Of a stretch of 27,013 nucleotides of DNA, positions 24,388 to 26,951 are shown piece after piece. Where the stretch lies: positions 1 through 27,013 of the forward strand of contig JAJXVC010000005.1 in the NCBI GenBank assembly GCA_021782295.1, given 5' to 3'. The translations under genes were made by a program, and so were the position numbers. Position 1 is the first letter of the stretch. Each line of letters begins with the position of its first letter. The notes under the pieces are model-generated. The model was not told the DNA's origin. It worked only from the letters and a program-made list of their open reading frames with translations, and did no database searches. This stretch comes from a bacterium. Lineage in GTDB: Bacteria; Eremiobacterota; Eremiobacteria; Baltobacterales; Baltobacteraceae.

Positions 24388-25173
24388 ATGCGTACGCCGA
24401 CGATTCTCCTCACCAACGATGACGGCGTCGCTTCGCCCGGTATCCACGCGCTCGCTCGCGAACTCGCCGAGCTCGCGCTGATCGTCGTCGTCGCACCCGA
24501 CGGCAACCGTAGCGGCGTGAGCCATGCGATCACCACCGACGATTCGGTCGGCGTCACACCGTACGAGGGCATCGCGGGCGTGCGCGCCTACGCCTGCACC
24601 GGAACGCCCGCCGACTGTGCCGTCATCGGCATCGGCGAGCTCTGCGAGAGGCGCCCGGATCTCGTCATCAGCGGGATCAACAACGGCCCCAACCTTGCCG
24701 ACGACGTGAACTACTCCGGGACGGTCGCCGGAGCCGTCGAAGCGGTGCTCCTCGGCGTCCGCGCGCTCGCCGTCTCCCTCGCGAGCGATCCCGACGACCT
24801 AACCGAGGCGCGTCACTGGGAGAGCGCCGCAGCGCAGATACGCACGATTCTTCCCTATGCACTCGCCGAGCTTCCACCGGAACGGTACTGGAACGTCAAC
24901 GTCCCGAATCTTCCGCCGGAACAGTTGCTCGGCCGCCGCTTTACCTCGCTCGGGCGCAAACGCTACGGCGAAGCGATCTCGCGCGTCGACGAACGGCGCG
25001 ATGCGCGCTACTACCGCGTCTGGAATCTTCCCGGCCGCGGCGATAGCGAAGACCCGGCAAGCGATATCGGAGCGGTCATGCAAGGCTACGTCAGCATTAC
25101 ACCGATCGCCATCGACCGCACCGACCGTGACGAATTGAACCGTTTGCGACTTTCCGCTGTTCAAGGGGCATGA
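24388..25173 (+). CDS. surE: 5'/3'-nucleotidase SurE
   Basis: 261 residues. SurE is a metal-dependent nucleoside-5'/3'-monophosphate phosphatase linked to stationary-phase survival and often found near protein-repair genes. The N-terminus ILLTNDDGVASPGIHAL holds the metal-binding D11-D12 pair, S42 lies in DGNRSGVSHA, and SGINNGPNLADDVNYSGTVAGAVE (95-118) is the conserved metal/phosphate site. The end YVSITPIAIDRTD matches the family C-terminus. The ATG at 24388 is the family start; an upstream frame extension has no similarity. The stop shares an ATGA with the next gene. Confidence 0.96.
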   Translation: MRTPTILLTNDDGVASPGIHALARELAELALIVVVAPDGNRSGVSHAITTDDSVGVTPYEGIAGVRAYACTGTPADCAVIGIGELCERRPDLVISGINNGPNLADDVNYSGTVAGAVEAVLLGVRALAVSLASDPDDLTEARHWESAAAQIRTILPYALAELPPERYWNVNVPNLPPEQLLGRRFTSLGRKRYGEAISRVDERRDARYYRVWNLPGRGDSEDPASDIGAVMQGYVSITPIAIDRTDRDELNRLRLSAVQGA

Positions 25174-25673
25174 AACCGCATTTTACCCCCGGCGAGCCTG
25201 CCTCGCTCGAGCTTTTTCCGCAGCCGATCGAGCTCCCCGCCCTCGTCATCTGGCCGCGCCACACCGGTTGAACGTTCTTCGGCGAGCCGCTCGCGCAGTT
25301 GCGTGAGTTCACCCAGAGCCATCCCGACGAACACGTCTATATCGTCGTCGCGGCCGATGAAGCGACGACGCGCTCGCTCTGCACGCCGTACGGCGTCGCC
25401 GACGCCTGCATCGCCGACCCAAACCGCGAGACGCATCGCGCCGCAAAACTTCGCCCGGCCTCACTGCTCTCGTTTTTCTCGCGCGAAATGATCGCGCGTG
25501 CGCGCGAAAATCATCGTGCGGGCTTTCGGCAGAATTGGGGGAAATCGCGGATCGACGATCTCGGACGCGTTCCCGGTGCGATGCGGATCGATGCGCGCGG
25601 AACGGTGAGCTGGATCTTTCGCGGAAAACACGCGGGCGATCTTCCGCCGGTGGCGGAGCTCATCGCTCGCTAG
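25170..25673 (+). CDS. Candidate selenoprotein: thioredoxin-fold (AhpC/TSA_2-like) redox protein with in-frame TGA
   Basis: Read from the ATG overlapping the surE stop, the frame gives 167 residues with one internal TGA at codon 34 (25269-25271) and a normal TAG end. The N-terminal part ends ALVIWPRHTG, the strand that precedes the catalytic Cys in AhpC/TSA_2-type redoxins (family pattern FxRHxGC). After the TGA come TFFGEPLAQLREF (the first redox-fold helix), YIVVAADE, ADPNRET, NWGKSRIDDLGRVPGAMRID and GTVSWIFRGKHAGDLPP, all in the order expected of the fold. The TGA therefore takes exactly the peroxidatic Cys position, as in known selenoproteins. Many genes here end in TGA, so the code is not globally reassigned. 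The resolving-Cys position is Phe; C71 and C80 are further along. Alternative: a pseudogene or sequencing error from TGC/TGT. Start strength is doubtful (AAGGGG is too close to the ATG). Confidence 0.7.
25269..25271 (+). other. In-frame TGA, predicted selenocysteine codon (residue 34)
   Basis: The codon follows CCG-CGC-CAC-ACC-GGT (Pro-Arg-His-Thr-Gly) and precedes ACG-TTC-TTC (Thr-Phe-Phe). Both flanks keep the same G+C-rich third positions and a continuous redoxin reading. Recoding needs selA/selB/selC/selD elsewhere in the genome; none is in this window. Confidence 0.65.
25290..25307 (+). promoter_or_regulatory. Putative bacterial SECIS stem-loop
   Basis: Arms ctcgcgc (25290-25296) and gcgtgag (25301-25307) form a 7-bp stem (one G-U pair) with loop AGUU. 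The loop begins 26 nt after the TGA, within the spacing reported for bacterial SECIS elements, and contains the G and U expected in the apical loop, although the stronger GGU form is absent. A competing hairpin (gcgag-ccg-ctcgc, 25282-25294) overlaps it. Assignment is by inspection only. Confidence 0.5.
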
Positions 25674-25682
25674 CCGAGGCTC

Positions 25683-26951
<1,269 letters not shown>

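Follow-up and report, generated by a model that had tools for sequence, protein, structure and literature searches.

The gene examined here lies on the forward strand of a 27,013-nt stretch of DNA from an Eremiobacterota genome (assembly GCA_021782295.1, contig JAJXVC010000005.1, positions 1–27013; hereafter the window) and is predicted to encode a selenocysteine (Sec)-containing redoxin. One reading frame (25170–25673) runs from an ATG, which overlaps the TGA stop codon of the upstream surE gene (25171–25173) in the sequence ATGA, to a TAG at 25671–25673, and contains a single internal TGA (25269–25271) at codon 34, between the motifs PRHTG and TFFGEP. If this codon is read as Sec, the product is a protein of 167 residues related to SelL and the AhpC-TSA_2 redoxins. 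The first-pass annotation had proposed this frame, with the TGA at the site of a reactive cysteine, as an unannotated selenoprotein gene, and all positions of the frame were confirmed. It had also foreseen that gene callers would report only a truncated protein. The mechanical list of open reading frames (ORFs) indeed yields solely the 124-residue part starting with a TTG (25299–25301) and ending at 25673; in the full-length frame, this TTG is the codon of Leu44. A single-sequence search of the protein database found ten proteins, each of 124 amino acids and each starting at the same Leu, therefore this truncation propagates in the databases.

When 149 genomes of the phylum were scanned, 22 of them, including nine close genomes, yielded a total of 23 matches. 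At the DNA level, 22 of these 23 relatives carry TGA in the column of codon 34, which together with the window makes 23 TGA sequences, while the remaining one (L045, genome G128) has TGC. In a separate scan of genome contigs, nine loci were found and all nine had TGA at codon 34; three of the corresponding contig records bear the name Eremiobacterota, and six are labelled only "bacterium". One genome (G124) contains two copies of the gene (L042 and L050), both with TGA. Since 22 other genes have TGA at this column, a sequencing error is very unlikely. Both parts of the gene appear to be translated as one protein: among the 11 near-clade sequences (the window included), the ratio of nonsynonymous to synonymous substitution rates (dN/dS) was 0.184 for codons 1–33 vs 0.181 for codons 35–167, that is, purifying selection is equal on either side of the TGA. 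In the same sequences, the proportions of synonymous (pS) and nonsynonymous (pN) differences in codons 1–32 were 0.532 and 0.140 in frame, and this pattern was lost in the two shifted frames (pS 0.158 and 0.119, pN 0.272 and 0.288), where stop codons also appeared. Thus, the upstream part is protein-coding and in frame with the downstream part.

In the alignment of the 23 TGA and 12 Cys proteins, the codon-34 column contained Sec or Cys in all 35, as the first-pass annotation had expected of homologues. The database search gave 118 homologues, of which 31 were long enough to show this column; 30 of these have Cys, one has Ser, and Trp never occurs. In the tree, the 23 Sec forms and the 12 Cys forms are split by one branch (97/92), although the tree is unrooted and L045 forms a long branch. 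As for the residue two positions before the reactive one, it is Thr in 11 and Val in 12 of the 23 Sec forms, and 21 of the 31 full-length homologues have Cys there, forming the motif RHCG (e.g., the Cys form P0019). According to a mechanical sorting that also counted starts up to three residues before the column, 87 of the 118 homologues have their first residue at the Sec position or beyond it, including the ten near-clade proteins. Among the 87 are P0011–P0017, P0053–P0117, the Planctomycetes-named P0055, and the Dormibacteraeota-named P0010. Sec in the other 77 is a guess, and some of them may have misplaced starts or lie at contig ends. Homologue P0047 has its initial Met exactly at the Sec column (MTFFQEP), which is compatible with a choice of start, recoding, or a codon change.

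Downstream of the TGA, folding predicted a hairpin (25290–25307, + strand) with a 7-bp stem and the loop AGUU (25297–25300), a candidate bacterial selenocysteine insertion sequence (SECIS) that includes the TTG mentioned above. Eighteen bases separate it from the TGA, and the loop stands 25 nt after the UGA. The bacterial SECIS model of PMC13188914 has a loop of 3–9 nt, a stem of 4–16 bp, G in the first two loop positions, a distance of 16–37 nt from the UGA, and a minimum free energy of −7.5 or lower. The hairpin of the window falls within these limits (4-nt loop, 7 bp, G second in the loop, 25 nt, −10.1 kcal/mol). In 22 of the 23 TGA sequences, the 18-mer has a folding energy of −10.1 kcal/mol or below, and for the 24-nt fold a z value of −3.66 was obtained. 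The codons at +7 to +12 past the TGA are CTC GCG CAG TTG CGY GAG, from which CTC, CAG, TTG, and GAG are each present in all 23 TGA sequences, GCG in 21 (TCG in L041, ACG in L043), and the Arg codon is CGC in 13 and CGT in 10. Considering the 31 columns with an invariant amino acid having degenerate codons, a single codon is used in four of the five that lie in the hairpin, compared with 2 of the 26 elsewhere (P 0.002 by Fisher's test, kinship ignored). For comparison, TTG makes up 12% of the 356 Leu codons in six ORFs of the window. The pS in the hairpin codons was 0.126, whereas 155 windows of six codons had a median pS of 0.48, and the four windows with the lowest pS begin at codons 39–42, overlapping the hairpin. 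Only one stem pair varies (G-C, G-U, or A-U; mismatched in L041). The Cys-form gene L045 showed no hairpin at that place (n = 1). The search with Rfam at gathering scores gave no match in the window, the presence of a general bacterial SECIS family in Rfam being unchecked.

The search for the Sec machinery, which the first-pass annotation had named as a check of its proposal, was run in the nine close relatives. Hits over the cut-off were obtained for selA in 9/9 of these genomes vs 1/14 control genomes, for selB in 9/9 vs 2/14, and for selD in 6/9 vs 2/14. The tRNA-Sec genes were counted by ARAGORN (anticodon TCA), because the tRNA-Sec cut-off of Rfam was also reached by tRNA-Ser here; 150 candidates were scored per genome, among 155–594. 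Such genes were found in six of the nine close genomes and in 11 of the 12 other TGA-form genomes, that is, in 17 of 21. As regards G128, which carries the sole Cys-form copy found in the phylum, the genome has selA, while ARAGORN found no tRNA-Sec in it; this genome may be incomplete, and a case of Sec loss is possible.

The selD genes of six genomes (L051–L056 in G003, G002, G009, G005, G008, and G001, respectively) each contain one in-frame TGA, in the context SCAG-U-ASK; downstream of it lies a hairpin containing GCUCGCGCAGGUU. In all six, selD is itself a gene for a selenoprotein. The sequence GCUCGCGCAG is common to the six selD hairpins and the redoxin hairpin, suggesting that one SelB may read both. 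In G135 and G139, selA had also been flagged for in-frame TGA, but these codons proved to be ordinary terminal stops adjoining selB.

With regard to its family, the protein matched NF040769 (SelL-related redox protein) along residues 23–166 and profile positions 26–171 of 173 (E 2.1e-17, 63.3 bits), and all 35 aligned relatives match the same profile at E ≤ 0.001. The score of the protein is below the cut-off of the profile, and it has Sec instead of Cys at the reactive site; the curated NF040769 may or may not include Sec forms. Pfam AhpC-TSA_2 (PF13911) gave 19.8 bits, under its gathering score of 27. The AlphaFold2 model (predicted local distance difference test, pLDDT, 88.9) gave matches to peroxiredoxin folds, and in this predicted structure of peroxiredoxin/thioredoxin-like fold the reactive residue lies ahead of the first active-site helix. 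Sequence search of PDB resulted in three chance-level matches (E 0.25 or worse) and profile search of PDB in none. The top Foldseek match was human prostamide/prostaglandin F synthase (9usa), which is 15% identical; its title names a C44/C47 pair vs Sec34 and Phe37 in our protein, and these positions are presumably equivalent.

SelL carries the motif UxxU. It has been described as a Prx-like protein (PMC2398784), and other Prx-like selenoproteins contain UxxC or UxxU (PMC9312934; PMC13188914). The Prx-like thiol:disulfide oxidoreductase selenoproteins (PF00578) and SelL resemble the protein studied here in having Sec in a peroxiredoxin-like fold, but in them another Cys or Sec follows three positions later, which is missing here. 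The AhpC/TSA selenoprotein (pfam13911, cd02970; PMC9312934, PMC13188914) is likewise a Sec redoxin of the AhpC-TSA_2/PRX-like2 kind, but it has the motif UxxS vs UxxF here, and PF13911 scored under its cut-off in our case. No Cys, Ser, or Sec stands three residues past Sec34; this position is Phe37 (25278–25280) in all 23 TGA sequences.

Considering the conserved TGA, the Cys/Sec column, the coding character of both sides, the hairpin, and the machinery of the kin, we infer that Sec is very probably inserted at codon 34, which upholds the proposal of the first-pass annotation. Of the three observations that it had named as refuting this proposal, two (a lack of Sec machinery, and homologues devoid of Cys or Sec at the column) were looked for in relatives and did not materialise. 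Several observations weigh against this interpretation. The machinery of the window's own organism is deduced from its kin; three of the nine close genomes have no selD over the cut-off, and tRNA-Sec was missed in 4 of the 21 TGA-form genomes (only a 40-nt piece of it in G006, none in G007, G009, and G070). The draft state of the genomes is a likely reason for these gaps. Moreover, selA is common in the phylum, being over the cut-off in 121 of the 149 genomes and in 22/22 carriers, so its co-occurrence with the gene is weak support (Fisher P 0.007). As to the hairpin, the stem mismatch in L041 leaves the 18-mer at only −6.5, L050 favours a different fold in a 51-nt window, and a 45-nt segment taken from the UGA onwards has an unremarkable fold (z −0.93). 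Covariation did not exceed that of the shuffles (203/500), a test that is uninformative because the hairpin hardly varies. In addition, one database homologue (P0052) has Ser at the Sec column, and the 63.3 bits scored with NF040769 do not reach its cut-off of 120 bits.

Alternatively, the TGA could be a true stop, in a pseudogene or owing to a sequencing error, or two separate products of 33 and 124 residues could arise, the longer being initiated at TTG 25299. The appearance of the TTG-started ORF in the mechanical list and the preservation of TTG in 23/23 TGA sequences would fit separate translation, but this TTG sits in the loop and stem of the hairpin, the other codons of which are kept too. 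Taking into account also the TGA at the same column in 22 other genes and the equal purifying selection on both sides, we regard a true stop as highly improbable. Even less credible is an altered genetic code or a suppressor tRNA that would place a different amino acid, for example Trp or Cys, at the TGA. Read-through of TGA alone would leave the inserted residue unspecified, but the column of the homologues contains Cys and never Trp, the TGA is followed by a hairpin, and the kin possess selA, selB, and a tRNA-Sec with the anticodon TCA. Furthermore, TGA serves as the stop codon of surE in the window, in agreement with the earlier claim that TGA is a genuine stop elsewhere in this DNA.

For the selenoprotein, the following mode of synthesis and action can be proposed. 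SelB with Sec-tRNA(UCA), bound to the downstream hairpin, would insert Sec at the UGA of codon 34, and translation would then run on to the TAG. The product would be a peroxiredoxin/thioredoxin-fold protein of the SelL-related/AhpC-TSA_2 kind with Sec34 just ahead of the first active-site helix, where the selenolate most likely attacks a peroxide or a disulfide. Since Phe stands where a CxxC motif would normally have its second Cys, the oxidised Sec would be resolved as a selenenylsulfide by Cys80 (25407–25409) or Cys71 (25380–25382), and a thioredoxin-like donor could then reduce this bond. Cys80 is present in 35/35 aligned proteins and 114/118 database homologues, Cys71 in 34/35 and 115/118, and both are candidate resolving thiols. 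The earlier wording "peroxidase or reductase" is suggested by the fold and the conserved cysteines, and a peroxidase reaction seems slightly the better guess. It is also quite conceivable, if somewhat less than an even chance, that the same selenoprotein acts as a thiol-disulfide or substrate-specific reductase, similarly to the PRX-like prostamide/prostaglandin F synthase, which was the top structural match. The RHTG preceding Sec in our protein is in line with this, as Sec peroxiredoxins bear the signature PxxxTxxU (PMC13188914).

The upstream neighbour, surE (24388–25173, + strand), was identified by its match to Pfam SurE (E 7.5e-58). The convergent gene at 25683–26951 (− strand), listed among the ORFs and present as neighbour copies in relatives, is what we take to be clpX by the family features of its sequence, no family search having been made. 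In loci L001–L009 and L033, both genes flank the selenoprotein gene (10/10), the order of surE is kept, and the clpX copies beside it are 97.6–99.1% identical. No match to surE or clpX was found within the 2.1–3.4 kb examined around each of the 13 distant copies (L038–L050). The coupling to surE claimed in the first-pass annotation is therefore characteristic of the near clade and hints only weakly at the function of the gene.

While selenoprotein redoxins are a known kind, the UxxF form would be a distinct subfamily by the rule of PMC13188914, according to which the same domain with a different Sec motif makes a separate subfamily. Table 1 of this 2026 review, covering 119 prokaryotic selenoprotein families, has no entry for a UxxF redoxin, and its main text makes no mention of NF040769 or SelL. 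No report joining Eremiobacterota (WPS-2) and selenoproteins was found in the open-access literature, a search that left subscription journals mostly uncovered and did not include the name Vulcanimicrobiota. It is conceivable, though somewhat less likely than not, that there is a widespread and largely unannotated branch of SelL-related redoxins, to which the 87 short homologues would point. In this branch, Sec would be usual, a relay from Sec34 to Cys80 or Cys71 would replace the motifs UxxC, UxxS, and UxxU, and the overlap with surE would occur in one Eremiobacterota clade. The gene exemplifies the way in which a catalytic residue can be concealed by gene callers; further selenoproteins of this redoxin family, possibly many, may be truncated in databases, and the truncation point common to the homologues can serve as a marker for finding further such genes. 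The finding adds to the known Sec redoxins, as far as the table of the review goes, a subfamily with the active-site motif UxxF, in a host phylum where selA is frequent. Here the resolving thiol must be sought elsewhere than in the usual motif, a case that lends itself to testing.
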